A stretch of 64,000 bases of DNA from Haloplanus ruber. Lineage in GTDB: Archaea > Halobacteriota > Halobacteria > Halobacteriales > Haloferacaceae. The translations under genes and the position numbers were made by a program. The stretch's first letter is position 1. The number at the start of each line of letters is the position of its first letter. The notes below the pieces were generated by a model that did no database searches, had not been told where the DNA came from, and worked only from the letters and a program-made list of their open reading frames with translations. The DNA is taken from contig NZ_JANHDK010000001.1 in assembly GCF_024494725.1 (NCBI RefSeq), positions 1,302,001-1,366,000 on the forward strand. The letters are read 5' to 3'. This document shows, one piece after another, positions 32,004-64,000 of the stretch.

Positions 32004-32150
32004 AACGGAATCTCTTCGGCTACGAGCGGCATAAGCCCTCGCTTCCCGCCACGGGGGCGTTTCGAGGCGGTGACGATGGTCCGGCGACCGGGGCCGCCGA
32101 CCGGAAATCGGTGGGTTGAACCGCACCCCCCGTCTACCGGTCGGGTGCGT

Positions 32151-32234: not shown

Positions 32235-32253
32235 TCGAAGGGCTCGCGCCCGA

Positions 32254-32312: not shown

Positions 32313-32483
32313 AAACCCCATTTGACCGGCACTCAATGAGTGGCAACACCGACCGTATAGGTCGATAGAATACACCGATCTCGGCACGATTATTGGCGTA
32401 CTGGCAGAGAATTTTAATTCCGATACGGTATTGATACCTTCTCAATAGAGCGAAATATAGTCAGAATACCGATAAGTGGCTGG

Positions 32484-45874: not shown

Positions 45875-45949
45875 GCTCCGATGGTGTAGTCCGGCCAATC
45901 ATATTGCCCTCTCACGGCAATGACCAGGGTTCGAATCCCTGTCGGAGCA
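45875..45949 (+). tRNA. tRNA-Glu (anticodon CUC)
   Basis: The 75-nt gene has acceptor GCTCCGA paired with TCGGAGC, discriminator A at 45949, anticodon arm TTGCC-CTCTCAC-GGCAA with anticodon CTC (reads GAG), and T arm CAGGG-TTCGAAT-CCCTG. CCA is not encoded. The base composition changes sharply right after its 3' end, so it is the likely integration site of the following island. Confidence 0.96.
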
Positions 45950-46277
45950 TACTTATCCTTCCGCTGTCTGGTGATTTCGGCCGATGAGGACCTTAGTCTT
46001 TCACCAAATGCTCAGGGCAATCCGATTGCGATGAAATTACTATTCCACTGCCGTCCTGCGTTTTCGGTTCTTGGCTCACCATCATGGTTCGGATGAATCT
46101 CTCGAAAAACTCCTAAGAGAATCGTTTGATATTTGCGCTGTTTTCCGGAACGATTGGATTGTCTTGACCGCGCGATCGATCTCCTCGGCTACTGTTCAGT
46201 CAGGGTGAGTCCAATTACAGCACTAGCTACTGGCAGTGGCTGTTAGTTTCTGTCTCCGCAGGTCAGTCGTGTTTTTA
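45950..46277. other. Gene-free start of the AT-rich island
   Basis: No open frame with gene-like codon use is seen here. The stretch is visibly less GC-rich than everything to the left of 45949. If the island integrated in tRNA-Glu, the left attachment site would be at its start. I searched by eye for another copy of the tRNA 3' end further right in the window and found none. Confidence 0.6.
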
Positions 46278-46547
46278 CTATGATGGAGAGTCTCCTTGTT
46301 GTATTTCATCTGCATCTGCTTCTCCCGTGAGAAATTTCTCACCAAGCGTCGTCAAGCGATAGTTCGATGCGTCTACCCGCTGTAGAAGGCTGGCATCGGC
46401 TAGCTTTCGACACCGTCGAGAGATGTATTCTCCAGTATAGTCGATATTAGCTGCGATTACTGAGGGAGAAGCAATAATCTCCTTCTCAAAGAGGAACTCC
46501 AAAATACGCTCATCGGCTTGAGTCATCCAGTCGATACGAGGACGCAT
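46278..46547 (-). CDS. PhiH1-repressor-like winged-helix protein
   Basis: The 89-residue protein starts at ATG 46547 (MRPRIDWMTQADERILEFL). It is a small winged helix: IIASPSVIAANIDYTGEYISRRCRKLADASLL is the DNA-binding helix pair and wing (about residues 24-55). The same opening (MRPR-DWMTQADERILEFL) is typical of repressors and regulators in haloviruses and plasmids, including phiH1. A 14-bp palindrome, GTGTCT-GT-AGACAC (46592-46605), lies 45-58 bp upstream of its start and may be its operator. It probably governs island maintenance. Confidence 0.85.
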   Translation of the reverse strand: MRPRIDWMTQADERILEFLFEKEIIASPSVIAANIDYTGEYISRRCRKLADASLLQRVDASNYRLTTLGEKFLTGEADADEIQQGDSPS

Positions 46548-46591
46548 TTGCTAATCAATAGGAAAAATCAGGCCTAAGAGCCGATGCGAAC

Positions 46592-46605
46592 GTGTCTGTA
46601 GACAC
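46592..46605. promoter_or_regulatory. Operator-like palindrome of the island repressor
   Basis: GTGTCT-GT-AGACAC is a perfect inverted repeat in the 160-bp divergent region between the phiH1-like repressor and the DUF7344 gene. Nearby is a direct repeat of TATCAGA. A repressor bound here could control both divergent promoters. Binding is inferred. Confidence 0.55.
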
Positions 46606-46707
46606 AATATCAGATACTATCAGACCTAGATTTTTGTGTTTGAGTGCTCTATAGTATCACACAGATTCCAAGATTCGATTGAATCAACATACGGATTGAG
46701 ATCAATC

Positions 46708-47109
46708 ATGAACGGATCACCCCAACCCAATGAGTTTCTGTCCGTACTTTACCATGCTTTGCGAGCGACACGAAGACGATGTATCATCCGACATTTGCGG
46801 GAGAACCGCAACAAAGAGGTCACAACTCGAGAGCTTGCCCGAGAAGTAGCTAGTTTTGAACAGGATATGTCTCGATCGAAGGTCTCTGGAGAACCCTACC
46901 GGAATGCCTACAATGCCCTTTCTCAAACGCATTTACCTACTCTTTCGGAGGCCGGGATAATCATCTATGACTCCAATCGACAGACGGTGTCGACCGGAGA
47001 AAACTTCGACCTATCCGTGATTCTGGTTGAAAATAATGCAACCACAGTCGAGCTGTTTCTGGCGCTGACCAGTGGATACCAGCCAGACCATGCTAACGGA
47101 CCACAATAG
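46708..47109 (+). CDS. DUF7344-like winged-helix protein
   Basis: The 133-residue protein starts at ATG 46708. It has the DUF7344 pattern: ALRATRRRCIIRHLRE, then TTRELAREVAS and YNALSQTHLPTLSEAGIIIYD (about residues 20-92). No membrane segment is present. Codon use is AT-richer than in the chromosomal homologue at 41239-41763. It is divergent from the island repressor and precedes the Cas4-like gene by 39 bp, so it may regulate that operon. Confidence 0.82.
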   Translation: MNGSPQPNEFLSVLYHALRATRRRCIIRHLRENRNKEVTTRELAREVASFEQDMSRSKVSGEPYRNAYNALSQTHLPTLSEAGIIIYDSNRQTVSTGENFDLSVILVENNATTVELFLALTSGYQPDHANGPQ

Positions 47110-47148: not shown

Positions 47149-48270
47149 ATGGCTTCGGAACACCGGTCGGTTCCCATCGGCGAGCAAGCTAACAAAAGCC
47201 AGTTGGAAAGAGCTCTGTCTTCGGAGACATTCCGTGATTGGTATCAGGAGCGGCAATATCGGGAGAACATCGAAAATGGGACGCCATATTTTAATGAATC
47301 AGATCACGTTCCGGATCCGGAGAGACACAGTCCAAGCAAACTCCTCCGATGTCACCGTCGGCTGTTCTACCAGGACTACAACGCACCTGAGGAACAACCT
47401 GACCCAGACGGAATCTTCTGGGTCGGGTCAAAGTTTGAGGAAGAAATCATCTTTCCGTTTCTGAGAGATGCAGTCACCGGCCAGAACACATACGTTCAGA
47501 ATTCGATCTGGATTGACTATACTATCGAAACATCTGCTGACGATCTCCAGCTCAAGGGCGAAACTGACCCTGTTATCGTTGATGCAGACGGCAGCCCAAT
47601 TCTCCCAACAGAAATCAAAACGAAGCGCTCGGTCAAGGATCTCTCATCTCCCAATCGTGCACACCGCGCACAACTACACGCGTACCTAGTCGGGCTTTCC
47701 GAAAAATTCGATATTGATCTCACGACGGGGGTCATTCTGTACGGAAGTAGAAGGTCACTGGACATCACGACATTCCATGTTGAGTTTGATGCTGACTTTT
47801 GGCGAGATATCGTGCTTGAGTGGGCTGTCGATCATACCGAGTATCGAATCAACCAGAGATTGCCGCCTGCCGATCCAATGACGGGATGGGAGTGTGACTT
47901 CTGTTCCTACTGTGAACGGTGTGGCGAAGGCAACAGGCACTTCTCGGAAAAAGGGCCTGCCGGTCTGTTGACGAGATTTACCGCATATCCTCGCGAGAAG
48001 CTTATCGAATATCTTGAGGCCTATTCGAATGCGAAGCTCACGCCTTCACTCGCCTTTGAGTACGAAGAGTTAGCAAACAAGTATGGCGTTTATGACTGGG
48101 AGTGTCCCCAGTGCTTTGGAACGTACGCGTGGGATGCTCTCGGGTGGGATGGAGATGTCACACAGCCACCACGGTGTCCTCGCTGTGCCGAGGACGGATC
48201 CGTTAGCTTGCTCCATGGGCCAAACCCGGATGATCAGATCAATAGAGGTGACAAAAATGAAACAAAATGA
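47149..48270 (+). CDS. Cas4-like PD-(D/E)XK nuclease with Cys cluster
   Basis: The 373-residue protein has the layout of Cas4/AddB-type exonucleases. An N-terminal SPSKLLRCHRRLFYQD places one Cys (residue 68) before the nuclease core. The core has GETD (Asp140), EIKTKR (Glu155, Lys157) and QLHAYL (Gln175), which form the PD-(D/E)XK motifs and the QxxxY-type motif. The C-terminal part has WECDFCSYCERC (Cys249, 252, 255, 258), which with Cys68 can hold an Fe-S cluster. A second Cys-rich segment (CPQC and CPRC, about residues 318-345) is extra. No cas1 or CRISPR array is nearby. It leads an operon with a TFB-like gene and a serine recombinase. Confidence 0.8.
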   Translation: MASEHRSVPIGEQANKSQLERALSSETFRDWYQERQYRENIENGTPYFNESDHVPDPERHSPSKLLRCHRRLFYQDYNAPEEQPDPDGIFWVGSKFEEEIIFPFLRDAVTGQNTYVQNSIWIDYTIETSADDLQLKGETDPVIVDADGSPILPTEIKTKRSVKDLSSPNRAHRAQLHAYLVGLSEKFDIDLTTGVILYGSRRSLDITTFHVEFDADFWRDIVLEWAVDHTEYRINQRLPPADPMTGWECDFCSYCERCGEGNRHFSEKGPAGLLTRFTAYPREKLIEYLEAYSNAKLTPSLAFEYEELANKYGVYDWECPQCFGTYAWDALGWDGDVTQPPRCPRCAEDGSVSLLHGPNPDDQINRGDKNETK

Positions 48271-48330
48271 TTGGTGGTATCTCGCCGATCGCTGGAAAAG
48301 ATGGCTGTTGCATCTGATGTGGGGTCGAAC

Positions 48331-49137
48331 ATGAGTAAGAATCCCACTCAAACGACAGCCTCGACCGGCGAGTCAGATGGAAATCAATCCGTTGACGAGT
48401 GTCCTGCTTGCGGGGGATCTGAATTAGACACGCCCTCCGGAATTCCGGCTCCGATTTGTACTACCTGTGGGTTTGCTGTTGGCACTTCCGCTGATCCGCA
48501 AATCCCTCTCAATGACTCGAATGAGGAAGGTGGCACAACCTCAAACTCGTGGACTACCTATTATTCTGTGACGAACAGTACGGAACAGCAGATTGCAACC
48601 GCACTTGAGGAAGTAGAAGCGGTACGCGATGAACTTTCTCTGTCGACTGAGATTCGTTCTCGAACTGCGGATGTGTATGCGTCCGCCGCGATAGAGAATC
48701 TAACCGATGGACGGCGTACCCGACTGACGGTCGCAGCTGCCGTCTGTATTGGGTCCAGAGAAGTTGGATATCCGCGTCCAACTGAACGCGTCGCTCGCGC
48801 TGCCAATCTCGAAGCTAAAAATGTGAAACGTGCTCTTCGGTGTTTTCAGGAAGAACTCGATCGAGGATTCACCGAGACCCCTCCAGCATCCTACGTTCCC
48901 TTTCTCTGTTCAGATACTGAACTCGGATCTGAAATCGAAACTGAAGCGGTTGAATTGGTGCAGGAGTTGCCAGACGCTGAGCAAAGAGGAGTTCATCCAG
49001 TAGGGATTGCAGGCGCTGCGATTTACCTTGCCGCTGATGGTGATGTGACCCAACGGACTATTGCGGAAATAGCGGGGGTTACGAAGGAAACGATTCGTGT
49101 ACGGCTAGCGGATTTTCGGAGTGAGGTAGTCGAATGA
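48331..49137 (+). CDS. TFB-like factor encoded in the island
   Basis: The 268-residue protein starts at ATG 48331 (ATG 48301 is an alternative). It has an N-terminal zinc ribbon (CPACGG and CTTCG, about residues 24-47). Two cyclin-like repeats follow (about 80-170 and 180-268), ending AEIAGVTKETIRVRLADF. The B-reader and linker region after the ribbon is short and divergent compared with standard TFB, so its ability to start transcription is uncertain. It sits between the Cas4-like nuclease and the recombinase, with a stop overlapping the recombinase ATG. A specialised factor for its own element is a fair guess. Confidence 0.85.
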   Translation: MSKNPTQTTASTGESDGNQSVDECPACGGSELDTPSGIPAPICTTCGFAVGTSADPQIPLNDSNEEGGTTSNSWTTYYSVTNSTEQQIATALEEVEAVRDELSLSTEIRSRTADVYASAAIENLTDGRRTRLTVAAAVCIGSREVGYPRPTERVARAANLEAKNVKRALRCFQEELDRGFTETPPASYVPFLCSDTELGSEIETEAVELVQELPDAEQRGVHPVGIAGAAIYLAADGDVTQRTIAEIAGVTKETIRVRLADFRSEVVE

Positions 49138-50084
49138 GCGAACAATCACCCAACGGGATGGCTTTCGGGATGCAGAGTACCGCGCCGCTTCAGACTGCAG
49201 AAGGATTAACTGCCGCGATATACGCCCGAACATCGTCACCTGGACAGCAGCATGGTTATTCGCTCAATGAACAGGTGCGGCAGTGTTGGCAGCGATGCGA
49301 CGAATTAGGGTGGACCGTTTCTCATGTCTACCGAGATGAGGCCGTGAGTGGGAAAGATACCGACCGCGAGATGTTCCAGAAGCTACTCTCAGCGGCCGAA
49401 CAGGACTGCTTCGACGTAGTATTGGTATGGAAGTTGGATCGATTTTCGAGATCGTTGATGCATGCCGTGAAATTGGAACAACGCCTTCGCGACTGGGAGG
49501 TTGGCCTCCATAGTGTGACCGAGCAAATTGACACGACTACCCCGACTGGGAGGTTTAATTTTCGGAGTATTTCGTCTGCGTCAGAGTTGGAACGGGATTT
49601 AATAAAACAGCGCTCACAGATGGGATTGCGAGCGTTAGCTTTGGAACACAAATGGCCGAATGACAACCCTCCAGTTGGATATACAAAACAAGATGACGGA
49701 ACCTTGGAAATTGTGGAGCCAGAGGCAGAGTTTGTCCGAGAGATTTTCACGCGTTACATAGAGGTCCAGTCCATGCCAAATCTGGCCGAAGAGTTGAATG
49801 CTCAAAATCGTCTTGAGTATCGGAAATCGAAGTGGACCCCGTATGCCGTCGGCGAGATCTTAAAGAATCAATTATACATCGGAGAATATTCCGTTGCCGG
49901 GATACACGAATATGTGGAAGAATATCAAATACTCCCGGAGTCGCTTTTCGAGAAGGTAACTGCGGTTCGTACTCGGTTTCAGTCGGGCAAAGAGTCGAAA
50001 CGTCAACCGATGTCGAAGGACCGAAAAAACCGATATATAAAGAAGATCACCACTCAATATTCAGAATATTTGGAAGACTCGTGA
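49134..50084 (+). CDS. Serine recombinase (resolvase plus recombinase domain)
   Basis: The 316-residue protein starts at ATG 49134, overlapping the TFB-like stop. The resolvase domain (about residues 24-160) has AAIYARTSSPGQQHG with the catalytic Ser (34), YRDEAVSGKD and VWKLDRFSRS. The recombinase domain (about 180-290) has PPVGYTKQDDGTLEIVEPEAEFVREIF and YAVGEILKNQLYIGEY. It ends soon after this and lacks the zinc ribbon and long coiled coil of large serine integrases. It is expected to move or invert DNA of its own element. The att site is not known. Confidence 0.92.
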   Translation: MSEQSPNGMAFGMQSTAPLQTAEGLTAAIYARTSSPGQQHGYSLNEQVRQCWQRCDELGWTVSHVYRDEAVSGKDTDREMFQKLLSAAEQDCFDVVLVWKLDRFSRSLMHAVKLEQRLRDWEVGLHSVTEQIDTTTPTGRFNFRSISSASELERDLIKQRSQMGLRALALEHKWPNDNPPVGYTKQDDGTLEIVEPEAEFVREIFTRYIEVQSMPNLAEELNAQNRLEYRKSKWTPYAVGEILKNQLYIGEYSVAGIHEYVEEYQILPESLFEKVTAVRTRFQSGKESKRQPMSKDRKNRYIKKITTQYSEYLEDS

Positions 50085-50295: not shown

Positions 50296-51810
50296 GTGTC
50301 TTCTGATAGAGATTCAAGCGAATGCCCAGAGTGTGGAATTGGGTCTTCGTCTCCACTTGATTCGTATCAAGACCTGACTTTCTCGGAACTGACGGAGAGA
50401 GACGTTCAACAAGGCGAGTATTTTTTCTGTTTACTCTGCCAAGTCGCGTGGGATGCTCAAGAGCGAGTACCCTATGACGTTCCGAAGAGGAGCTGTGGCC
50501 CCAATGGCTTCCTAACAGAGGTGACTTCGGGCAAGGCAGTCTCGAACACGAAAACGAGTCATTACCGGCTGCTTGGCTATAATGATGGGAATTTAATACT
50601 ACGTGATGTCGGTGATATGGCCTTCGCGAACGAACCGTGGCCGTCGTCCCGAGAGGATATGGAGAATCAGCTCGGAGACGTCATGGAAGTCACACACTCT
50701 GGATATCCGCAATCGATCCAGACTATCCTCAACGCACTGAGAGTCGGCTACTGCGTTCATGGTACGATTGGTGATACAGATAATGGAGACACGTTAGAAT
50801 TCGATGCCGAAGAGCCATGCGAGATCGTGGAAGCAGTGCCTGTCGATTACGCTCTCGAAACGGAATTTGTTCCCGAAGTGGCTGACAAGGTGTGGAAGAC
50901 GGAGTTCACCGAGTCACAGTCGGAAGGCGAAATTCCACAGGCTCGAGTGTCGGTCCAGGGGGAAAACGGGCCTGCTGCTGACGTCTACGTGTTCCCAAAG
51001 GAACTCCAAGTTGCGGATGGATTATCACTACTCGAAGCGATGGGGCAGGGAGTCACGCATCATCTCGAAGAATTCACTGCCAACTTTACTGGAGCGTTCG
51101 AGGGTGGAGTGATCGATGTGCTGTTTATCGCTCCCGCAGACCGGCCCTACTTTGCTGTCTACTCCCTTGGAAGAGATCACATAGATCTGTCGCACGAACT
51201 ACGCACGGAACTGAATTTACCCGTGGTACACCATGGTCAGAAAGCAGATCCTGCCCTGGTGTACGACATTCGGTACAATCCCCACTACGTGAGGAGAGAA
51301 ACTAGTAACTCTGAAGATGTGTTGGTTGCTGTCGGCGACGAAGAGACGATCATCGATATCGAAGCCGGAACTGTTGAGGGAGATGCCTTTGAGATCTCTC
51401 CGGACTCGCATGAACTCGTCGTGACTGGGTCCGAGAATGGCAAAAAGATCGAAATCGCCCGCTTACGAGCACCAACAGCTCGACTTGGAATGGCAGCGGA
51501 GGACAGAGTACGAGACCCTGGCCAGATGAACTCAAGTGGTGGAACCGTGGGAAAGACCGATGATCAACGAAAAAAACCGGAGATGGAACTACCGGAATGC
51601 CTCTCAAGAAGAGACGTGTCGCGGCTCGCCGATATCGCCGAATTACAACCCACATCAAATAGTGAACTAGCTGATCGGTGGGGGCTCGCCGGTGGTTCAG
51701 AGGTGTATCAGTATCTTTCGTCGGCTCTCGACGACCACTACTACAGAGATGCGGAAAAGTATATTCGCGTGACTGATCAAGGAAAGCGTATACTACAAAA
51801 GTTCGAATAA
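50296..51810 (+). CDS. Zinc-ribbon protein with DUF5797-like C-terminal winged helix
   Basis: The 504-residue protein starts at GTG 50296. A TATA-like TTTATAAG box lies about 45 bp upstream. The N-terminal segment has CPECGIGSSS and a second CLLC (about residues 10-48), probably one zinc ribbon. The middle (about 70-390) is beta-rich and unrecognised. The last 90 residues (about 430-504) have SRRDVSRLADIAELQPTSNSELADRWG, then VYQYLSSALDDHYYRDAEKYIRV, which resembles the haloarchaeal DUF5797 domain. A DNA-binding role at the C-terminus is likely. Its position after the recombinase operon suggests element cargo. Confidence 0.78.
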   Translation: MSSDRDSSECPECGIGSSSPLDSYQDLTFSELTERDVQQGEYFFCLLCQVAWDAQERVPYDVPKRSCGPNGFLTEVTSGKAVSNTKTSHYRLLGYNDGNLILRDVGDMAFANEPWPSSREDMENQLGDVMEVTHSGYPQSIQTILNALRVGYCVHGTIGDTDNGDTLEFDAEEPCEIVEAVPVDYALETEFVPEVADKVWKTEFTESQSEGEIPQARVSVQGENGPAADVYVFPKELQVADGLSLLEAMGQGVTHHLEEFTANFTGAFEGGVIDVLFIAPADRPYFAVYSLGRDHIDLSHELRTELNLPVVHHGQKADPALVYDIRYNPHYVRRETSNSEDVLVAVGDEETIIDIEAGTVEGDAFEISPDSHELVVTGSENGKKIEIARLRAPTARLGMAAEDRVRDPGQMNSSGGTVGKTDDQRKKPEMELPECLSRRDVSRLADIAELQPTSNSELADRWGLAGGSEVYQYLSSALDDHYYRDAEKYIRVTDQGKRILQKFE

Positions 51811-52258: not shown

Positions 52259-53932
52259 TCAGTCTTTCGGTGGACATACCTTCAGTAGGACAATATCCGA
52301 ACGGTCAGTATAGGCTTCTTCAAGGTCGTTCTGTATTGCCTCCCACTCGTTTTTGTACGGAACCTTTCGCTGGCAGTCAGCCTCTGCCCCCTCTTCTTTA
52401 TATTTCGGACATATCCAGTAATGGGCGATTCTACCGTCCTCTAGTGGATGATTAGTATCTTCTCCGTTTCGTACCATTCCGCGATTACATTGTGGACAGA
52501 CTGGCTTGATGGCATCTACTACGTCGATGGCTAACAACAGCATTCCATAGTCTGCAAGACCGTCTACTGTGATACTGTCCTCTGCATCTGTGCTGTATTT
52601 CTTCTCCTCTTGTTCAAGGAACTCATTCACCTCATCGAACAATTCCTGATCGACAATCTGAAGCGTGGGATCCTCAATAGCAGTCTGCTCTTCGTAGGGC
52701 TTACTTCGCGGGTAACGCACTTCCCCAGTTAGCAAGGGATTCGTCAATAGACGTTTGAGTCTCGAACTATCAAATTCTGTGAGAGTATAATCCGACCTAT
52801 CGAACACTTCCTGAATCTTTTCGGCCTCGATCTCACCTAAAGTTATTTTGTCACCTGAGTCTCTCGATTGCTTGTCACCGACTAATTCGTTCTTGCCCGC
52901 ACTTTTTAGCTTGGCAATCGTTTCCGTGCGCGTCTCAGTTTCAAGCAAATCGTTTATCGTTGCCGTAATGACTTCTGTTGCGTGCGGTGCGGGCTCGATC
53001 CACTCCTCATTATCCGATTGATATCCAACGGGGACGTTGTTGAACCATGTCTTCCACTTTCTATCGTCGCTAAAGCGCAGGCGGATAGAATTCCAGGCCG
53101 CTCGAATTCTGTTTTCAACTGATTTTCCTGCAATAATCGCATTCAGAACCAGATCAAGCTGCTCCTCAATCTTGTCTAACTCATAATGTCCGTGTTCGGC
53201 CGTGATGATGGGGACGTCATAATCGTAGTGAATCTTAGCTGCGATGTAGACCGTTTCAAGCGTATCGCGCCCAAGACGATCGATACGGTCTAGAACGACG
53301 GGTCGGGGCTCTCGTTCGAGCGCATTAATGAGGTTTTGAAAACCCTCACGCTCAAATGTATATCCTGATTGATTTTTGTCCACGAAGAAAACTGGATCAC
53401 TGTAGCCCTCGTTTTTTGCAGCTCTACTAGCCTCTTGTTTTTGTGACTCGATGCTTGCTGATTCGTCTCCATCCGTCTGACTTTGACGAACGTACCCATA
53501 GACTCGATCTGCTATAGAAGATATCCACGAGTCTACATCGGTCAGATTGTCTTCTATTGTTGAGCCATCGGGATCTATATCTCCGAGCTTGGTCTGAGTG
53601 TCCGCAATCAGCGAGAGAAATAGGACTGATAAGAGAGCGGCAGCTGGTGATCCCCCGACAGCTTCCAGGATGTATGATCCAAGATACCCTGTGAGGGTGT
53701 ATGATCTAAGACAGCCTACGGAGTATGATCCAACACACCCTACGCTGGCGTGCCAATTGATTCCGACAGCAGTACCGAGAGATACGACCAGCCATAGGGG
53801 CGTATAAGAAGATTGGCCAGATCTTATATCATAGGCTATGATATTGTCGCGGTACCGCTGTAATATCATACGTAAAATAAGAAGGCTGTACAGCACGGCG
53901 TTGATGAGCCGTGAGTCAGTCCGGTTCTGCAC
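52259..53932 (-). CDS. Serine recombinase with hydrophobic N-terminal extension
   Basis: The 557-residue protein starts at GTG 53932, three bases after the stop of the tyrosine recombinase gene. The resolvase domain (about residues 143-270) has YGYVRQSQTD with the catalytic Ser (about 151), VFFVDKNQSGYTF and VLDRIDRLGRDT. A recombinase domain and a C-terminal zinc ribbon (CPQCNRGMVRNGE with a second CPKY/C pair) follow. The first 140 residues are unusual: three hydrophobic stretches (about 9-24, 44-60 and 95-110) surround a repeated GSY-type segment (about 64-88). No ATG lies between residue 22 and the resolvase domain, so the extension seems part of the protein. Confidence 0.85.
   Translation of the reverse strand: MQNRTDSRLINAVLYSLLILRMILQRYRDNIIAYDIRSGQSSYTPLWLVVSLGTAVGINWHASVGCVGSYSVGCLRSYTLTGYLGSYILEAVGGSPAAALLSVLFLSLIADTQTKLGDIDPDGSTIEDNLTDVDSWISSIADRVYGYVRQSQTDGDESASIESQKQEASRAAKNEGYSDPVFFVDKNQSGYTFEREGFQNLINALEREPRPVVLDRIDRLGRDTLETVYIAAKIHYDYDVPIITAEHGHYELDKIEEQLDLVLNAIIAGKSVENRIRAAWNSIRLRFSDDRKWKTWFNNVPVGYQSDNEEWIEPAPHATEVITATINDLLETETRTETIAKLKSAGKNELVGDKQSRDSGDKITLGEIEAEKIQEVFDRSDYTLTEFDSSRLKRLLTNPLLTGEVRYPRSKPYEEQTAIEDPTLQIVDQELFDEVNEFLEQEEKKYSTDAEDSITVDGLADYGMLLLAIDVVDAIKPVCPQCNRGMVRNGEDTNHPLEDGRIAHYWICPKYKEEGAEADCQRKVPYKNEWEAIQNDLEEAYTDRSDIVLLKVCPPKD
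53673..53745. repeat. Three imperfect direct repeats inside the recombinase gene
   Basis: TATGATC plus a following AAGAYACCCT-like tail starts at 53673, 53700 and 53724 (spacing 27 and 24 bp, multiples of three). On the minus strand it encodes a repeated GSY/RSY-type segment. It may be a protein repeat or a set of DNA-binding sites for a recombination protein. Confidence 0.6.
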
Positions 53933-53935: not shown

Positions 53936-55105
53936 TCAAACACCCCCCGAGATATCTTCGATTACCTCACGCTTTGCTTCCGGAGTCGGATGGGCGTACT
54001 TTCGAGCTGCCTCCAGAGTTTTGTGCCGGAGAATTTCTGCGACGAAGCCTAAATCCTGCGTTCTAGCGTAGACATACGTCCCAACGCTATGGCGAATCGA
54101 GTGCCAAGTAAATGATCTTCCTCCGGGGGCTACATCGGACTCGTCAATGAGGTTGCTTAGGAGCCTGTTGAGACTTTTTGACTGGTAGGGATTGCCCTTC
54201 CGGTTAAGCCAGACACGATTTGATTTATCGTAGTTTTGGTTGTTAGAACGTTGCTCAAACCAGCGCTTGAGCATTTCTACTGATTGACTTGAAATCTCAT
54301 TTTCCCATTGCTCGTCGTTCTTCACCGCTACCTCTGGAGGGATGACGATGACACCGTTCTCTAGATCTATGAAATCGGATCTCAGATCGCGAATTAGCTG
54401 ACAGCGTGGCCCGATGTCCGTCGCAACGCCAATTAACGAGGGAATTTTCCAACTGCGCTGGAGCTGCTCCCAATCCGCTACTGTGATCTCATTTTTCGGC
54501 TTTCCAAGATACTGTGCAAGGTGCGTTTTCCATCGATCTCGCTCTTCAGGCGAGAGATTACTGTACGACGGCGGTGTCTTATAATCTAATGCGGCATCCA
54601 GTAGTGAGTCCAATTCGGCAGACCTGAAGTAATCAGCTACGAATCCTGACCCGGTATCCTCAAATTCAACGGGCGGGGACCAATTTCGGTTTTGGAATCT
54701 GAAGTAAATCCGCAGTGCATCGTTGAAATGCCTCTTCGTTATCTCTTTGTAGGGTTCTCCGCCACGAGTCTGGATGGTGTCTTCGTTGAGATTTTCTATG
54801 AATTCATCCGCTACTGTTGGCGTGAGCTCCAAGATCTCGTGACCATTCCGCCATTCATACTCGAAGACTTGGAAGATACGACGGCTGATCGGTCTTATAT
54901 TCGAATCAGCATATCCAATGCCTTTGTTCGGGTTTTTGCCTTTGGTCCGAATGAAATGCAGTAATTCTTCCCAGTGTTTTTGAAAGAGGATTCGCTTCTT
55001 GAGTTTGATCGCGGAAATTTTTGAATTGGAAATGAATTCCAGATCGACCTCCGTAGGAGTCGATGTTGGGGTGCCCGAGTCGTTTGATCCTAGCCTTTCT
55101 GGCAT
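53936..55105 (-). CDS. Tyrosine recombinase/integrase (first of two)
   Basis: The 389-residue protein starts at ATG 55105. The N-terminal SAM-like DNA-binding domain (about residues 35-145) is followed by the catalytic domain. This has the Arg of ATDIGPRCQLIRDL (about 234), HSIRHSVG (His 335, Arg 338), His 361 of ILRHKT and the Tyr nucleophile at about 370. All needed residues are present. The stop is three bases from the start of the serine recombinase, so the two are coupled. It is clearly homologous along its length to the 56787-57890 protein. Confidence 0.93.
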   Translation of the reverse strand: MPERLGSNDSGTPTSTPTEVDLEFISNSKISAIKLKKRILFQKHWEELLHFIRTKGKNPNKGIGYADSNIRPISRRIFQVFEYEWRNGHEILELTPTVADEFIENLNEDTIQTRGGEPYKEITKRHFNDALRIYFRFQNRNWSPPVEFEDTGSGFVADYFRSAELDSLLDAALDYKTPPSYSNLSPEERDRWKTHLAQYLGKPKNEITVADWEQLQRSWKIPSLIGVATDIGPRCQLIRDLRSDFIDLENGVIVIPPEVAVKNDEQWENEISSQSVEMLKRWFEQRSNNQNYDKSNRVWLNRKGNPYQSKSLNRLLSNLIDESDVAPGGRSFTWHSIRHSVGTYVYARTQDLGFVAEILRHKTLEAARKYAHPTPEAKREVIEDISGGV

Positions 55106-55682
55106 TCTTGGTTCACACAATGGAGGGAAGTAGATTGAGTGACTCTTGAGTGCGAATTCTAGCAAAAATATCCTCCAGAACGGTTTGAGGAAAAATTTAA
55201 ATATAGCCTATATCTCAAGCCATCGACCAACTGTTCTCACGTCCACGTATCTACTATATCGGAAAATTCGAACTCTCAGAACTACCTAACCGAACTGTCT
55301 GCCTTGCTTCTACTCGGTTGCGTGTTTGATAAGGAGTACTGCAAAGTCTCACAGCACTGAGGAGTCTCTGAATACTCAATCCGATATTATACTTCTATGT
55401 GTATGACACATGGCGTTCAACCGTACAGAATCATATCTTGCCCATCCAATCTCATCTTTTCAATCCGCGCTATGTGCGCGTGATCAATACTGCGTAGAGA
55501 CAGTATCAGGTTATTGGATGATCTGTGGTGGCATCAAGCTCGCAAATCCTGAAAGTGCGCACTTGCCTATTCGAAGACTTGGTGAATGAGACTTATCGAA
55601 GATGTTTGACCGTGATTTGGGCACACCGGATAAGTCAAGTAACAAAAGGATGAAAACTCACCACCTGAATACTTGATCTATC
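55106..55682. other. Gene-free gap between integrase and unknown gene
   Basis: The region between the minus-strand integrase and the plus-strand unknown gene holds no credible gene. It is AT-rich and contains a small inverted repeat (CGCGC-TATGT-GCGCG, about 55467-55481). It must hold two divergent promoters, and possibly a recombination site, since integrase genes are often next to their att. Confidence 0.5.
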
Positions 55683-56786: not shown

Positions 56787-57890
56787 CTACCCCATTCTAT
56801 CGAGAGCATTTCGTCGATCTTCGACCGGTGCTTGGTCGTATTTCATAGTCGTCTCTACCGATTTGTGCCGCAGCTGTGCTTGAGTTGCTGCGAGGTCCTC
56901 CTCTCGAGTCATGTACGTTCCCAAAGAATGACGAATCGAATACCAACTCATTTGGCGCGTTTCCGTCTCGATGCCAGCAAGTTCACACAGCTGAGTGAGA
57001 ATATATTTGAGTGACTGAGAGCTGAAGGTATTTTGTTCACGAGTAAGCCAGAGGGCGTTCGTATCATCATACTTTGAGTATGCTTCCCGCTCTTCCAGCC
57101 ATCGTTCAAGAAAGAGCGAAGTTTGTTCTGTGAGCCCGACTACCCAATTATCCTGAGATTTTGAACTCTCTTGCTTCGGTATCCGGAGGAGACAGTTTTC
57201 GGGTTCGACCCACGACGTGGAAGCTCGTGATACTTCTACTGGCCGCAGACCGGCATCGAGCGATGTCCACACCAGTGATGGTATCTTCCATCCATTTGCT
57301 CTATCCCAATCTTCTGGTGTTATCTCACTCTTCGGTTTCTCGAATCGTTGGGCGAGATACCTTTTCCATCGGTCGCGTTCTAGCGGTGTCTGGTTTGCGT
57401 AGGACGGTACGGATCCATACTCTAGTGCAGCATCCCGAATCTTCTCGCGCTCTCGCTCCGTCAGGTAATCGCGTGGGTGATTGCTGCTATCCTCGCTAAA
57501 TTTGAGTGATGGCTCCCATTGAGAGGTCCCACTTTCGTGATGTCGCCATTTGAATAGCATTTGGATAGCCTTCTGACAATTCGATTTGTGCGTGCTACTG
57601 TAATCTGTCTGTGCGAGATATCGGAGCCATTCATCTCCGTGTTCTGGCTGTACATTTGCAGTGTACCCATCCTCTTGTTCCCAGACCCAGCGATAGAACT
57701 GATCCATGCGATATGATCGCGGTTGAACCGTCCCAAAGGCGTACCCCTCACCCTTTGCAGGATTTTTTCCAAATGTGAGTAACCACTGGAGACAGTCTTT
57801 CCGTTCGCTTTTGTAATTTAGCAACTGTCTGGGATTCAGGTGTGCTTTGGCTGGCTCTGTGACAATCGGTAGATCAGACACATCTGGCAT
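56787..57890 (-). CDS. Tyrosine recombinase/integrase (second of two)
   Basis: The 367-residue protein starts at ATG 57890 (ATG 57920 is possible). The catalytic residues are Arg in LDAGLRPVEVSRA (about 216), YSIRHSLG where a Tyr replaces the usual His before the second Arg (about 317-320), His of QLRHKS (about 342) and the Tyr nucleophile (about 351). The missing His is tolerated in some members. It is homologous over its full length to the first recombinase, sharing the RDRWK-x-LAQ and KPKxEIT-x-x-DW segments. It lies downstream of a TFB gene on the same strand. Confidence 0.92.
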   Translation of the reverse strand: MPDVSDLPIVTEPAKAHLNPRQLLNYKSERKDCLQWLLTFGKNPAKGEGYAFGTVQPRSYRMDQFYRWVWEQEDGYTANVQPEHGDEWLRYLAQTDYSSTHKSNCQKAIQMLFKWRHHESGTSQWEPSLKFSEDSSNHPRDYLTEREREKIRDAALEYGSVPSYANQTPLERDRWKRYLAQRFEKPKSEITPEDWDRANGWKIPSLVWTSLDAGLRPVEVSRASTSWVEPENCLLRIPKQESSKSQDNWVVGLTEQTSLFLERWLEEREAYSKYDDTNALWLTREQNTFSSQSLKYILTQLCELAGIETETRQMSWYSIRHSLGTYMTREEDLAATQAQLRHKSVETTMKYDQAPVEDRRNALDRMG

Positions 57891-58004
57891 TGTGAGATTC
57901 TCTACCGCACGGATACACATAGACAATCGGTGATTGATGCCCAACACCCGTCGATCTTTTGAGGAAGGAATCAAAGTCTCCTATCCGGAGACATTGAAAT
58001 CTGA

Positions 58005-58910
58005 CTACTTGGACACCTCCTTCTTGAAATACTGATACTGTCGGGAGATTGTGACTGTGCTTACGCCGGCCACTTCGGCGACTGTCTCCTGCGTGAGCGG
58101 CTCGTTGTACTCTTCTGCTGCAGCGTACACTGCCGCCGCAGCTACACCAGATGGGCTTTGACCGATATGTGTACCGTCCCCCGTTGCTTTCTCCAGCAGT
58201 TCACGACTGCGGCGCTGAATGCGAAACGGTACTCCGATGGCAGTGGCAATTTTCGGAAGGAACTCTTGAGGCTCGGGTGGTCGTAATCCAATTCCAAGTT
58301 CCTTGAGGAGTGTTCGATAGTCACTCGAGATTCGCTGTTCGGTAACCGGCGATGCGGTGGCGACATCCGAGAGTGTAACTGGCTGACTGTATCGACGCGT
58401 AGCAGTGTAGACGCAAGCACCTGCGATGCTTTCCTGGGACCTGCCTTTCAGCAAACCCTCCTGCGATGCTCGGCGATAGAGGTAGGCAGCATGCTCCTCG
58501 GTAGGATCAGAGAGTTCACAGCCAGTACACAGGGCGCGAACTTCTCGGAGCCCCGTCTTGAGTGCCCTCGTCGAGTATTCTAAGCGGTTGTTGTGATGTT
58601 CCAGTACCCCAGTACGGTCGTTCGAGTTTCCCCAGAGCGTTGTACCGACCGATTCGTGGTTGACTGAAGTAGCGGGACCCATTCGCCGCTGCTCACGCGG
58701 TTTCCATCCCGGCTCACTGCGTTCGATAGGATGTTGTGAAAGAACGAGACCGCACTCTTGGCAGTACCGCGTGCCCTCTTCACTGGAACCGATGGTGGTC
58801 GAATCACATTCGGGGCATGTGGTATTCGTACTGACCGTGGCAGATACCGACGGTTCGGGGGATGATTGGTTAGCGGTAGCGACGGCTGTGGCCTGTGGTG
58901 TGTACTCCAT
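58005..58910 (-). CDS. Transcription initiation factor TFB family protein
   Basis: The 301-residue protein starts at ATG 58910. It has an N-terminal zinc ribbon (CPECDSTT and YCQECGLV, about residues 34-57). A B-reader-like segment (ERSEPGWKPREQRRMG) follows, then two cyclin repeats (about 110-200 and 205-301). Compared with the chromosome-type TFB it has a full domain set and could work with TBP. Haloarchaea have many TFBs on mobile elements. It lies 114 bp upstream of, and on the same strand as, the second integrase. Confidence 0.93.
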   Translation of the reverse strand: MEYTPQATAVATANQSSPEPSVSATVSTNTTCPECDSTTIGSSEEGTRYCQECGLVLSQHPIERSEPGWKPREQRRMGPATSVNHESVGTTLWGNSNDRTGVLEHHNNRLEYSTRALKTGLREVRALCTGCELSDPTEEHAAYLYRRASQEGLLKGRSQESIAGACVYTATRRYSQPVTLSDVATASPVTEQRISSDYRTLLKELGIGLRPPEPQEFLPKIATAIGVPFRIQRRSRELLEKATGDGTHIGQSPSGVAAAAVYAAAEEYNEPLTQETVAEVAGVSTVTISRQYQYFKKEVSK

Positions 58911-59755: not shown

Positions 59756-60862
59756 ATGAACGAAGCTCCCGAAGTGAGCGACGACACTCAGATGGTAGAA
59801 ATAACTGACACGGAGTCCGACCTCGTCACGCAATTGCTTGCCGGAATAGACGAGGCTATTACCAGCGTCGCCGAGATTGATCCCACTTACGCGAATAAGA
59901 CAAAGGTACAGAAATTACTCTATCTCGCAATCGACGAGTTCGACATCCCCATTACGTACAGTTGGTACCTTGCCGGTGCGGTCGTTCCAGATCGTTCTAT
60001 CTCTCCTTCGTCACTCGATGTCTATACCGACCAACCGACCTCGCCATCCGAGCCGAGTATTGCAGGATCGGCAGACGAATCGGTAGGAGAGGAGTCGTCC
60101 GAAACCAGCCCAATCGAGCCGATCATGTTCCGTGACGAAACGAACGAGTCCGATCCGGACCCACCCGCTGACGACCTAGAGAGTTATGTTTCCAAGGGCG
60201 AACTCGTCGCGTTCTATCGTGACGTCCTTCCGGAGGTATGGCACCAAGAGACGATGCGCTTCTTGCAGAACTTCTACCAAGAGGAGGCTCCTGAAGAGTA
60301 TCGTCTTCTCTATATCGAAAGCACGCACCTCCGGACTCATCTTGCGGAGCTTATCGACACGGTTGAAATCTACCTTGACGATGGGGACCCTACCCGCGAG
60401 ATTGATTCCTTGAGAGAGTCGATTGAACTGAGTATATCAGACCTCCACCACTACATACGCGCTGACGACCAGCTTCGCGAAACGTTCGAGGTTGTCGTTC
60501 TGGGGACGGACTTGATCGAGGATACGCTACTCAAACTCGAGCGACTGCAGCCGGATGACTTCACCGATGAACATCTCTCACTATTACGCGACCTCCAAGA
60601 TTTCTTCTACTATTACGTGTGGAAGCACCCCTGTCTGCGGATTTCGTACCAGACGGCAACCGGACCGCAGGCAGACGAACTGCGCACCGAACGGCTCGCC
60701 GAATTCGAATCTTTCAAAGAGCGGGTTATCGAACGACGTGACGAACTCAGAGCGGAGCTAGCTTCTGCTGGTCTTCGTCCGGCTCCCGGTGACTACGCAT
60801 CACCAGAAGATCAGGAGCTAACTGAGACGCTAAGGGATTTATCTTCGCAGTATCTGGAGTAA
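59756..60862 (+). CDS. Panacea-like (DUF4065-type) N-terminal domain protein, partner of PIN protein
   Basis: The 368-residue protein starts at ATG 59756. Its N-terminus (about residues 22-82) has NKTKVQKLLYLAIDEF and YSWYLAGAVVP, which resemble the KLQKLLY and YGP-type core of Panacea/SocA-like antitoxin domains. A Ser/Glu-rich linker (about 90-145) and a helical C-terminal domain (about 150-368) follow. The next gene, a PIN-domain protein, starts 4 bp downstream. That order fits a toxin-antitoxin or defence pair. The Panacea match is by eye and needs a profile search. Confidence 0.7.
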   Translation: MNEAPEVSDDTQMVEITDTESDLVTQLLAGIDEAITSVAEIDPTYANKTKVQKLLYLAIDEFDIPITYSWYLAGAVVPDRSISPSSLDVYTDQPTSPSEPSIAGSADESVGEESSETSPIEPIMFRDETNESDPDPPADDLESYVSKGELVAFYRDVLPEVWHQETMRFLQNFYQEEAPEEYRLLYIESTHLRTHLAELIDTVEIYLDDGDPTREIDSLRESIELSISDLHHYIRADDQLRETFEVVVLGTDLIEDTLLKLERLQPDDFTDEHLSLLRDLQDFFYYYVWKHPCLRISYQTATGPQADELRTERLAEFESFKERVIERRDELRAELASAGLRPAPGDYASPEDQELTETLRDLSSQYLE

Positions 60863-60866
60863 TTGT

Positions 60867-61598
60867 ATGGCGGAGAGTCCCGACGATGAGTCTACTGAAA
60901 CTGTATCTCTGGACAATGTCTTCGTTGACACCAGCATTCTCCTCAACTACGTCCAACAGGGACTTGAGCCCGATCACACGTCAGAGTTGATCGAAGGCAA
61001 TCACATTGACCTCGTCGTTGGTGTCACGGTTGCGGACGAATTCGATGATGTGGGTGACCGGCGTGCAGATATTTATCCTGACTTTCTCGACTTTCTTCTC
61101 GTCGAGGAGGGCAAACTTACCGACTATTCACCTGAAGAACGCCGACCGTACTTCCAAGAGAACGACTACCGACACCTACGAAACATTCAGATGCAACTCT
61201 CACAGCTCGATGACCGAGCCGAGATTCAGCGACAAGTACGATACTTTATTCGAGCCATCCAGAGACGTATCGAATACATCCGCGAAGAGATCATTCCTAG
61301 TGCGAAGTTCGATCTACAGCCAGGAATGACGCTCCTATTCGCTCTCGGAGACGTGATTCCAAACGATAGTGATCGGAACGTCGTCGGTGACGCAGCACTA
61401 TGGTCTGCCGAGGTTTCCGACAGTTCGGGTGTTTTCGCCACTATGGATAGGAAGGATCTGCTCAACTTGGCAGGAGACATCAATTCGGCACTCCACGAGA
61501 CAAAAGGGAAGGAATGGGAGCTCACGTTCCTCGTTCCGAGCGATCTCACCTCTCCAACTGACGACGTAGACTCCCCTGTCGCCGGTTCGTTCGATTAA
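60867..61598 (+). CDS. PIN-domain ribonuclease-like protein
   Basis: The 243-residue protein starts at ATG 60867. The PIN acidic set is visible: Asp21 in FVDTSILLNY, Glu58 in VADEFDDVGD, Asp175 in VVGDAALWSAE and Asp194 in ATMDRKDL. A helical insertion of about 80 residues (about 85-165) separates the second and third acids and is longer than in small VapC toxins. It is probably an endonuclease acting on RNA. It lies 4 bp after the Panacea-like gene, and its stop codon overlaps the stop of the convergent PLD gene. Confidence 0.82.
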   Translation: MAESPDDESTETVSLDNVFVDTSILLNYVQQGLEPDHTSELIEGNHIDLVVGVTVADEFDDVGDRRADIYPDFLDFLLVEEGKLTDYSPEERRPYFQENDYRHLRNIQMQLSQLDDRAEIQRQVRYFIRAIQRRIEYIREEIIPSAKFDLQPGMTLLFALGDVIPNDSDRNVVGDAALWSAEVSDSSGVFATMDRKDLLNLAGDINSALHETKGKEWELTFLVPSDLTSPTDDVDSPVAGSFD

Positions 61599-62056
61599 TC
61601 AGGTGACTGCTGAACCAAATCCAAACCGAGTTTTTTCTCTACGTACTCCTCGGCGGATCCGTACTCGTTCTCGAGTATTTCACATAATTCATGGTTGAGC
61701 GTCAAACCGCCGCGTGTAATGTTTGCCGAGCCCATATAGACGAACGCGTCACAGACAACAGCTTTTGCATGGAGATCTGAGATTTCCTGTATGACGACGT
61801 GTTCCGGAAGCCGCTCACTAATATAATCGTTATGTGATTCCCCCTCACGTACGAGCAACTGGATGTCCTTGTCCACGAGTTCTTCCAGTGCTTCCAAGAG
61901 TGTTATTTCTCGATCGTCGAAGCGGTCATTGACTGGCAGACGTAACGTAACATCGCTCAACCACGGAGAGATGATGACCACCCTATCGCTGTGTAACAGC
62001 GAGAAACCGATGAAATACGCAAGACTCTCAGAAGTCAAGGAAAATGCTCGTACCAT
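61595..62056 (-). CDS. PLD-family nuclease, DrmC-like
   Basis: The 153-residue protein starts at ATG 62056, inside the last codons of the upstream DUF1998 gene. It has the second half of a phospholipase D fold. VVIISPWLSDVTLRL leads (about residues 26-40) and HAKAVVCD (His96, Lys98, Asp103) is the HKD motif, followed by YMGSANITRGG. Only one HKD motif is present, so it must dimerise, as the nuclease Nuc does. It is shorter than typical DrmC of DISARM. The coupling to a DUF1998 protein is the main reason for the DrmC link. Confidence 0.85.
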   Translation of the reverse strand: MVRAFSLTSESLAYFIGFSLLHSDRVVIISPWLSDVTLRLPVNDRFDDREITLLEALEELVDKDIQLLVREGESHNDYISERLPEHVVIQEISDLHAKAVVCDAFVYMGSANITRGGLTLNHELCEILENEYGSAEEYVEKKLGLDLVQQSPD

Positions 62057-64000
62057 CAAATTCACCTGCCGGGAGGAGATTGCGTTCGAACATCTCGTCA
62101 CTTGTATCGTCCGTCGGAACAGCCCGAGTGAGTTCTTCTCGTAGTGCCTCGAGGAGAACGTAACTCAACGAGTCGCTCTGTCCGGTCGCGGCGATGCACT
62201 CGCTTAGGTGTAGATTCTCTACACAGCCGTCGATATCAGGTGAAGAAAACACCGTGTCAGCCCGTTCAACCTCGGAAAGATCGTAGCCGAGGGCTGAGAC
62301 AGTCTCCTCTGGGAAGTCCTCAGATCCAGATACCTGCTCCTGAGCGATTACGTGCTTTATCGAATAGGCGTCGTCGATATCGATCCCTTCGTCGGTCGAA
62401 AACTGATCCGCCTTGTCGATACTCGAAAGGACCTCTTGAACGACTCGTTCGACGACGGTGTCGAACGGTGTGTCCAACATGTCGGTGACCAAGCCCTCGA
62501 TTTCGTCCTCATTCTCGGGCTGGCACGGAAGTTTCTCGACGAACTCTTCGCGAGCCCACAGCCGTTCGTTGATGACTTGGGGATTGTAGGCAATTCGATT
62601 GATGGCTTCGAGGACGGTTCCAGGATCACTGGACAGTTCGTCGTACACTAAATCAGTGATTCCCTGTCCGCCTTCCGTCCGCTCGAAAATGTACACTTCA
62701 CCTACCTCACGGTTGAAGCCATAGAACAACATCGTCGTATTGACGGCGCTGACATCGGAGACGAGTTGAAGGAGAAAGTGAGCAGCTGTGTGATAGGCGA
62801 CGTATTCATAGTCGACTTCGTCGAAGTCGTTGTATCGTGCTACGATGTCGCGGATATCATCGTGGCCAACGCGTTGTAGGTACGATTCCATATCGAATAC
62901 GAGACCGCGAGTATCAATTTGGAAGCCAATCGTCTCCTCGGGACGGTCTATCTTGACCTCGAACGGATCGGTCCCATCGAAATTCACACTCCCACCCCAG
63001 TAACTGGCTGGGCGAATGTTGAGGGTCACACCCTCTAATGTGACTTCAGACGTGAGTTCTGCTAGTGCGATCGAACCAGTTGCAACCTCCTCATTACGTT
63101 CCGTAATTCGAGTCCGAACTTGGGGATCAGAATGAATTTTCCCCAGAGCGCTTTTTCCGTGCCGGAGACAGTTATCCAAGTCGGAGATAATCTGGTAGCA
63201 CTCAGGACAGTACCGGACGATGTTGAGTGCTGCTTCCTCACTTAGATCGGTCATAGAGGACAACTCGATCGAATCGGGGACGAGAACGCCATCACGAACT
63301 TCCCCGCTGACGTGTTGTGAGAAATCGAAGACGACGCCGTTTTCGGTAACCTCTGTACGGGGGAGGAATGCATGCATTTCGTTCGTTTCTGATTGATACT
63401 CCGACCGGTACGGCGTGTAGGTACTGACGAGTTTGTCGATCGACTCGTCGGTGCTGTCGCGAGAGTCAGGGCGGAAAACGCTGAAGAACTGACCAGCATC
63501 CCCGTAGTAATTGGGCGGAACGTACCAGACGTCACCGAGACTCCGGTCGTCAATCTGGAGGTAGCGGTCGAAATAGTATGCCCCCCTGAGGAGATGCTTG
63601 ATCGCGTACAAGCTAAGGAAAGGCGTACGATAATCGGCGTACTCTCGGAGTTCGTCCAGCGCCTCTTGGAGGTAGTAGACCCGCTTTTGAGTTCGATAAT
63701 ACGCTTCGATCCGATCGTCATCGCTCAGGCTGTTGAGGCGCGTGACCGCATCTTGAACCTCGTTCAGTCGGTCCGTCCGAACCTGCGGGATCGGCCGGTC
63801 AGAGAGTCGATTTACTTGACTCTGAAGTTTGATCAGATCGCCGCTCAGTCCAAACAGATCGCCGAGTAGTGCTTCGAAGTGCTGGACTTTCGTCTGAGAA
63901 TCGCCGTCCGGAATCGCTGACGCCTTGCTTCGTAGTGCATCGAGCGTTGTCTCTAACTCTTCGATTTCGGTCGTATGTGTTTTCTCGTCAAGATGGTCAA
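62028..64000 (-). CDS. DUF1998-type protein, DrmB-like or end of a defence helicase (partial)
   Basis: The frame is open from the stop at 62028 through the window edge, giving at least 657 residues. The N-terminal visible part (about the first 125 residues) is a coiled coil rich in Glu, Leu and Arg. The rest has Cys/His-bearing YCPECYQIISDLDNCLRH and a DUF1998-like C-terminal domain with AYHTAAHFLLQLVSD, YIFERTEGGQGITDLVYDEL and later GCVENLHLSEC. DUF1998 domains occur in DrmB of DISARM, in DruE-like helicases and in MrfA-type helicases. It overlaps the PLD gene by 29 bases. The start and any helicase domain lie outside the window. Confidence 0.8.
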   Translation of the reverse strand, partial: DHLDEKTHTTEIEELETTLDALRSKASAIPDGDSQTKVQHFEALLGDLFGLSGDLIKLQSQVNRLSDRPIPQVRTDRLNEVQDAVTRLNSLSDDDRIEAYYRTQKRVYYLQEALDELREYADYRTPFLSLYAIKHLLRGAYYFDRYLQIDDRSLGDVWYVPPNYYGDAGQFFSVFRPDSRDSTDESIDKLVSTYTPYRSEYQSETNEMHAFLPRTEVTENGVVFDFSQHVSGEVRDGVLVPDSIELSSMTDLSEEAALNIVRYCPECYQIISDLDNCLRHGKSALGKIHSDPQVRTRITERNEEVATGSIALAELTSEVTLEGVTLNIRPASYWGGSVNFDGTDPFEVKIDRPEETIGFQIDTRGLVFDMESYLQRVGHDDIRDIVARYNDFDEVDYEYVAYHTAAHFLLQLVSDVSAVNTTMLFYGFNREVGEVYIFERTEGGQGITDLVYDELSSDPGTVLEAINRIAYNPQVINERLWAREEFVEKLPCQPENEDEIEGLVTDMLDTPFDTVVERVVQEVLSSIDKADQFSTDEGIDIDDAYSIKHVIAQEQVSGSEDFPEETVSALGYDLSEVERADTVFSSPDIDGCVENLHLSECIAATGQSDSLSYVLLEALREELTRAVPTDDTSDEMFERNLLPAGEFDGTSIFLDF

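Follow-up and report, generated by a model that had tools for sequence, protein, structure and literature searches.

A TFB and serine recombinase gene set in a tRNA-Glu island of the haloarchaeon Haloplanus ruber

Thaumarchaeal integrative-conjugative elements carry a homologue of the basal transcription factor B (TFB), coupled to ParB and conjugation genes (PMC6563490), and the staphylococcal cassette recombinases CcrA, CcrB and CcrC are paired serine recombinases in an island with defence genes. Archaeal serine recombinases have been called 'never fully investigated' (PMC8371274). Here we analyse an operon of Haloplanus ruber at positions 47149 to 50084 of a 64,000-nucleotide stretch of contig NZ_JANHDK010000001.1 (hereafter the window), which encodes a PD-(D/E)XK nuclease (NUC), a TFB and a short serine recombinase (SR1). 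As in the thaumarchaeal elements a TFB homologue lies on an archaeal mobile element, but the haloarchaeal TFB is coupled to serine recombinases; as in the staphylococcal cassettes SR1 has a partner, the large serine recombinase SRL. Within the literature searched, PMC12458937, PMC6459918 and PMC10853773 included, term searches turned up no account of a TFB-recombinase module of this kind, and the conserved gene set is apparently undescribed so far.

Each component can be compared with a described family. Archaeal TFB and TFIIB proteins, including Sulfolobus TFB3, have a zinc ribbon, two cyclin repeats and a helix-turn-helix of the B recognition element (BRE) type, as does the SR1-linked TFB. 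The latter differs from archaeal TFBs in forming a separate clade, in having an unconserved 30-amino-acid (aa) stretch in place of the B-reader and B-linker, and in always standing beside a recombinase. The B-finger is missing from Sulfolobus TFB3 too (PMC2246294), but the TFB3 type, i.e. an abbreviated core without the BRE helix-turn-helix, is not matched, as the core and the helix-turn-helix of the SR1-linked TFB are complete. SR1 has the catalytic serine domain and the Recombinase domain of the Ccr type, but it lacks the C-terminal zinc-ribbon/coiled-coil part, its partner is encoded convergently, it comes with a TFB and a nuclease, and no attachment (att) site was found. NUC has its catalytic and four-Cys arrangement in common with Cas4 and its relatives (Dna2/AddB-type Fe-S PD-(D/E)XK nucleases), and is unlike Cas4 in scoring below the model cut-off, in its extra C-terminal Cys4 motif and in having no CRISPR repeats or cas1 seen nearby.

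The TFB and its serine recombinases

We counted SR1 relatives at E<=1e-50 among 292 Halobacteria genomes, retrieved the surroundings of the relatives of NUC and SR1 (loci of up to 20 kb), and read their neighbourhoods. SR1 relatives were present in 23 of the genomes, one in each, and in 18 of 77 genera. In all 23 genomes the adjacent co-directional gene encoded a TFB, the two genes mostly overlapping by 1-11 bp, and two gene orders were seen, TFB-SR1 and SR1-TFB. NUC stood immediately upstream of the pair in 18 of the 23, so that the co-occurrence which the original prediction had proposed as a check was found. Of 22 loci, 20 had a convergent SRL on the downstream side, and a tyrosine recombinase gene often came directly before it.

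Mantel tests on distance matrices gave rho values of 0.63 for TFB-SR1, 0.71 for SRL-SR1 and 0.69 for SRL-TFB (each p=0.001), versus -0.02 for NUC-SR1 (p=0.64) and 0.16 for NUC-TFB (p=0.07), i.e. no co-divergence of the nuclease. Judged on the sequences, the evolutionary unit can be taken to be TFB, SR1 and SRL rather than nuclease, TFB and SR1, because the first three co-diverge and NUC does not, and because NUC also precedes tyrosine recombinases or adjoins Cdc6. A tree of 62 TFBs placed the 34 haloarchaeal SR1-linked members in one clade (100/100), which divides into two subclades of 21 and 13 sequences that match the two gene orders. These results bear on the idea that the islands merely gather TFB, nuclease and recombinase genes that have no functional link. 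The islands are indeed mosaic, with further TFB and integrase genes in the same island, but such hitchhiking is contradicted by the unbroken adjacency across 18 genera, the overlapping or near-overlapping genes, the co-divergence and the clade-specific gene order, and we consider it highly improbable.

The TFB gene (48331..49137, + strand) has an ATG start at 48331, 60 bp past the NUC stop as originally predicted; if the gene began instead at the in-frame TTG at 48271, it would follow NUC without a gap. Its product matches Pfam TFIIB at 2.9e-19, and Pfam, alignment, model and tree together describe a zinc ribbon, an unconserved linker of ~30 aa, two cyclin folds and no B-reader/B-linker region. 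The zinc cysteines C24, C27, C43 and C46 are invariant in 22 sequences, as in a canonical zinc ribbon, and the two cyclin folds with a BRE-type helix-turn-helix are those of a canonical TFB (Pfam TFIIB, 1D3U match). The distance between the fourth zinc Cys and the Gly-Arg of cyclin repeat 1 is 80 aa in this TFB and 78-88 aa in 20 of 22 relatives, whereas 12 of 13 full-length TFBs have 123 aa; in the other two relatives and the other full-length TFB the pattern was misplaced. This agrees with the reduced linker that had been predicted, and the region absent from SR1-linked TFBs is the B-reader/B-linker (GPEWRAF..RVGAPTT in full-length TFBs). The predicted structure, with a mean predicted local distance difference test score (pLDDT) of 83.9, shows the ribbon, a disordered linker at residues 53-72 and two cyclin folds; its template modelling score against the TFB of 1D3U (TMt) is 0.79, and the cyclin core aligns at 8e-44. 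In the BRE-type helix every haloarchaeal SR1-linked member has a Glu where the compared TFBs have a Val, and in human TFIIB the corresponding Val contacts the BRE.

The start of SR1 (49134..50084, + strand) overlaps the end of the TFB gene by 4 bp (ATGA), again as predicted. Pfam and alignment identify a short serine recombinase with a catalytic domain (Resolvase 2.5e-35) and a Recombinase domain (1.5e-12), and catalytic Ser34 is invariant in 22 relatives. No Zn-ribbon or coiled-coil domain was detected in SR1 with Pfam, and SR1 ends near 312 aa. The best NCBIfam matches were CcrB (6.5e-31), XisF (3.9e-27) and CcrA (2.9e-21), all under the family cut-offs. SRL (52259..53932, - strand), whose true start is probably near 53740, is a convergent large serine recombinase by Pfam (Resolvase 1.3e-16, Recombinase 8.2e-9, and Zn_ribbon_recom at 2.9e-4, below the cut-off). 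The tyrosine recombinase INT1 (53936..55165, - strand; Phage_integrase 9e-18) lies 3 bp upstream of SRL, and in several other loci a tyrosine recombinase likewise precedes SRL. Between SR1 and SRL the window has a DUF5797 protein gene (50296..51810, + strand; Pfam 2.3e-20), which is absent from the other loci viewed.

The original prediction had also proposed a search for shared flanking repeats, and none were found for the serine module. An invertible cassette was considered and rejected: inverted repeats of at least 20 nt were absent from the window region and from two of three other loci, and the pair seen in L088 was weak. The search for empty sites within the genus to which G079 belongs yielded a shared stretch of 13.7 kb and a single 6-bp junction (AGCGTC, genomes G050 and G079 compared), a picture too complex for defining att sites; the junction is compatible with loss of the module but no proof of it. 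Viral origin was rejected as well, as NUC had no match in phages and the SR1 matches in viral contigs were only weak. As a side observation, in Halonotius aquaticus (L105, 6993-9175) two ParB-like genes, not the nuclease, precede TFB-SR1, which recalls the thaumarchaeal TFIIB-ParB coupling.

Scanning species genomes with SR1 revealed further haloarchaea and three loci outside Halobacteria. An Archaeoglobi metagenome-assembled genome (MAG) has a 212-aa putative nuclease, SR1 and a convergent SRL, with no TFB nearby. In a Bathyarchaeota MAG, dndA, B, C and D (PADLOC 1e-151 to 2e-189) adjoin SR1-TFB and serine recombinases that are encoded convergently. The third locus, on a contig binned as Poribacteria (L134), encodes a putative nuclease, SR1 and a TFB (10909-11784). 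This contig is probably archaeal and misbinned, because its TFB is the only one in that Candidatus Poribacteria bin. The SR1-TFB pair of L134 adjoins four genes, for a YprA-type helicase, two unknowns and a DpdH-like ATPase, whose order is that of four genes of the window's island (identity 28%, 24%, 26% and 22%). By eye, the usual linker motif is absent from the bathyarchaeal and L134 TFBs.

The nuclease and its control block

The nuclease gene (47149..48270, + strand) completes the set of three intact + strand open reading frames that had been predicted here. By profiles and alignment NUC (373 aa) is a PD-(D/E)XK nuclease that has the Fe-S cysteines of the Cas4 type and, in its C-terminal part, an additional Cys4 motif; it matches Pfam PDDEXK_1 at 2.4e-5 and, below the cut-off, Cas_Cas4 at 2.9e-4. 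In an alignment of 41 sequences C68, C249, C252 and C258, together with D140, E155, K157 and Q175, are all invariant, i.e. NUC has the RecB-type catalytic residues and the four Fe-S cysteines of Cas4, and the predicted Cas4-type Cys arrangement is borne out; four further C-terminal Cys are also invariant. We rejected the possibility that NUC is the standard Cas4 of a CRISPR locus, which the original prediction had named as a result that would count against it: the match to TIGR00372 cas4 (4.9e-12) scores 46.0 bits, under the cut-off of 65, no CRISPR-like direct repeats were found at 45.8-60 kb, and there was no match to Cas1 or Cas2 among the neighbouring proteins scanned.

NUC is preceded by a DUF7344 gene, the first gene of the operon (46636..47109, + strand; Pfam DUF7344 1.1e-20 and neighbourhoods), and by a small divergent gene for a winged helix-turn-helix (wHTH) protein (46278..46547, - strand), which is kept in this place in most loci and matches Pfam HVO_A0261_N at 1.1e-4, below the cut-off. 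The divergent control region between them (46548..46635) was examined by intergenic comparison, and in relatives it contains inverted-repeat-like motifs of two types, which track the type of wHTH, not the type of recombinase or the presence of a TFB. NUC relatives occur in 48 of the 292 genomes, and elsewhere the wHTH-DUF7344-NUC block is followed by tyrosine recombinases, or lies beside Cdc6 and a DDE transposase gene. A natural swap between two species of one genus shows this most directly: locus L067 of genome G181 carries SR1-TFB and locus L076 of G064 carries tyrosine recombinases, and the two are 87% identical at the nucleotide level from -836 to +1138 of the 1155-bp NUC gene, i.e. until 17 bp before its end, after which the modules are unrelated. 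Because the two loci share the promoter region and yet carry different modules, the upstream promoter is independent of the TFB. By comparison of the sequences wHTH-DUF7344-NUC is an exchangeable control-and-nuclease block that is coupled to differing recombinase modules. In a side observation, the alternative module (L076, L075, L078 and L081) begins with a gene for a 190-aa protein, continues with a wHTH-like protein and a tyrosine recombinase, a pair that is present twice, and ends with two more recombinase-like genes, giving up to four recombinases consecutively.

The original prediction had proposed that nuclease, TFB and SR1 form one self-controlled transposition or integration system in which the TFB activates its own promoters. 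The three genes do stand together in most SR1 genomes, and putative PD-(D/E)XK genes also lie upstream of SR1 in L107, L131, L134 and L137. For the small upstream gene of L131, L107 and L134 the predicted fold was of low confidence (pLDDT 64) and its best matches, PD-(D/E)XK nucleases, had E>0.1; for that reason the assignment rests on the D..ExK..Q motif and the one Cys near each end that appear in an alignment of the three sequences. The mobile island and the co-occurrence agree with the proposal, but the unit is TFB, SR1 and SRL: the nuclease does not co-diverge with SR1 or the TFB and pairs freely with tyrosine recombinases, the same promoter occurs without a TFB, and insertion at tRNA-Glu is better accounted for by another enzyme, INT2 (see below). 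As the driver of the operon's own promoter the TFB found no support, since the control region is shared by elements with and without a TFB and a by-eye comparison revealed no shared motif upstream of the SRL/tyrosine recombinase operon. We therefore regard the self-controlled system as improbable.

The island at tRNA-Glu and its cargo

The operon belongs to the recombination section of a mobile archaeal island that carries DNA-modification/defence genes. Directly past a tRNA-Glu (CTC) gene (45875..45949, + strand; ARAGORN and direct repeat), at 45.9 kb, GC content drops from 0.68 to ~0.49. The 3' 42 nt of this tRNA gene (45908-45949) recur 51 kb downstream, past the window end (96889-96930 of the composite, in L112), and because of this repeat the operon can be placed at the left end of a tRNA-Glu island, with the tRNA gene, its attachment site, at one end and the repeated 3' part at the other, as in tRNA-integrating islands generally. 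The island is 51 kb in size. From its left end the gene order is wHTH (-), DUF7344, NUC, TFB, SR1 and DUF5797 (+), SRL and INT1 (-), a 355-aa protein (+), then INT2 and a second TFB (TFB2) (-), and then cargo.

The tyrosine integrase INT2 (56787..57974, - strand) has relatives in 136 of the 292 genomes, and the family adjoins tRNA-Glu in 26 of the 29 relative loci fetched. The region following tRNA-Glu in the window (45950..46066) resembles the left attachment arm (attL) between tRNA-Glu and the integrase in INT2-type elements: blastn to relatives gave 75-97% identity over the tRNA plus up to ~38 nt beyond, and short weaker matches up to 46066. Because of this retained arm and the family's usual place beside tRNA-Glu, INT2 is likely to be the integrase of the whole island, even though the SR1/TFB block occupies the usual INT2 place in the window. 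SR1 was accordingly set aside as the integrase of the island, INT2 being the better candidate, and the serine module is likely to be an extra or nested recombination unit.

TFB2 (58005..58910, - strand), 30 bp upstream of INT2, falls outside the SR1-linked clade in the tree, and its linker is also shortened (101 aa versus 123 aa). TFB2-INT2 was rejected as a second conserved TFB-recombinase pair, as no TFB adjoins INT2 in 28 of 29 relatives; in L184 a TFB is present on the far side of the tRNA. Two side observations concern insertion sites: tRNA-Glu is an island hotspot, with 45-46-nt partial copies in several genomes of the window's own genus, and a second GC dip (0.56) at window positions 32000-34000, beside tRNA-Leu (32150-32236), is probably a small second insertion.

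The cargo of the window's island (59756-64000 and L111-L112) includes DpdK-, DpdH- and DpdJ/YprA-like proteins and a QueC match. The defence-like part of the cargo, which continues in L111-L112, starts with a phospholipase D (PLD) nuclease related to DpdK/DrmC (61595..62101, - strand). By eye we take the neighbours of the QueC match to be QueD, QueE, FolE and two TGT-like proteins. Together they make up a 7-deazaguanine, Dpd/YprA-type DNA-modification defence set, possibly of BRIGADE type (PMC12458937). In other haloarchaeal loci, 55 wHTH-side cargo proteins included PbeA six times and PbeC/DndD five times (counted with no matched control set), and a type I restriction enzyme was also present. 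Dpd, BRIGADE and other YprA-helicase systems (PMC12458937) and DndCDEA-PbeABCD (PMC6459918) thus match the cargo of the islands and are distinct from the TFB-recombinase module.

Possible roles of the TFB and their meaning

Our explanation as a whole is about evenly balanced between right and wrong, and its parts differ in strength. The architecture we hold with high confidence; the gene content, the obligate pairing of TFB and SR1 as neighbours, their co-divergence with each other and with SRL, the exchangeable nuclease block, linker loss and island context are all legible in the aligned loci. The mechanism by which the TFB would serve recombination is more tentative, falling somewhat short of an even chance. 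In this mechanism the first module (wHTH, DUF7344 and NUC) would probably be a repressor switch over an operon ending in an Fe-S PD-(D/E)XK nuclease, and the second would be a recombination unit of TFB, SR1 and convergent SRL, often with a tyrosine recombinase just upstream of SRL. SR1 and SRL would form a two-subunit serine recombinase in which SR1 lacks the usual C-terminal DNA-binding domain, and the degenerate TFB is most likely their dedicated partner for binding DNA. With its cyclin folds and helix-turn-helix it would bind to a BRE/TATA-like site, or bend the DNA where recombination takes place, and would set site choice or the direction of recombination. Its zinc ribbon may hold RNA polymerase there, and the nuclease may act during excision on DNA ends or competing DNA, which it would trim or remove. 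We infer all of the catalytic and binding steps, and also that the TFB acts on recombination rather than on transcription.

Several observations weigh against this mechanism. The invariant zinc ribbon and the well-kept BRE-type helix would also suit a role in transcription, and Sulfolobus TFB3, which has no B-finger, affects transcription (PMC2246294, PMC7289017). SR1 may work without a TFB in Archaeoglobi, because none lies near that locus, and the bathyarchaeal and L134 TFBs fall outside the haloarchaeal clade, both on long branches. In the window's island integration is better explained by INT2 than by the serine module; neither an attachment site nor a product of the serine recombinases could be identified, and the AGCGTC junction could be a microhomology deletion.

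The main rival is a role for the TFB in transcription away from the NUC promoter, i.e. as an element-encoded transcription factor that works with host TBP (the TATA-binding protein) and RNA polymerase, or together with host TFB as has been proposed for Sulfolobus TFB3. It would activate or block the promoters of SRL, the tyrosine recombinase, cargo or host, and its linkage to SR1 would reflect only the need for co-production. The invariant ribbon Cys of the 22 relatives, the close match of fold and cyclin core to the TFB of 1D3U, the tie of B-finger-less TFB3 to transcription (PMC2246294, PMC7289017) and the many TFBs that haloarchaea employ for promoter choice (PMC7289017) all favour it. However, the same control region precedes NUC in TFB-free elements, no shared motif was seen by eye upstream of the SRL/tyrosine recombinase operon, the TFB co-diverges with the recombinases, and it lacks the B-reader and B-linker, which extend to the active site of RNA polymerase and stabilise the template strand (PMC7289017). 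A transcription role is a serious possibility, to which we give roughly one chance in three.

The strongest form of the recombination mechanism, which is unlikely though worth stating, is that a basal TFB without its polymerase-activating linker has turned into a site-specific recombinase subunit, guiding the serine recombinase pair to a BRE/TATA-like site. The use of TFIIIB by Ty3 is a partial parallel. If this is true, defence islands would move or rearrange at promoter-like sites.

The gene set suggests that a transcription factor has been recruited into a DNA-rearranging machine in islands that carry virus-defence genes. A recombinase family with a dedicated TFB in every haloarchaeal genome tested offers a clear case, open to testing, in which a basal transcription factor is tied to the rearrangement of DNA, and a TFB-assisted serine recombinase may become useful as a tool in archaea. 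It also points to a possible route by which 7-deazaguanine, phosphorothioate and restriction systems pass between archaea.

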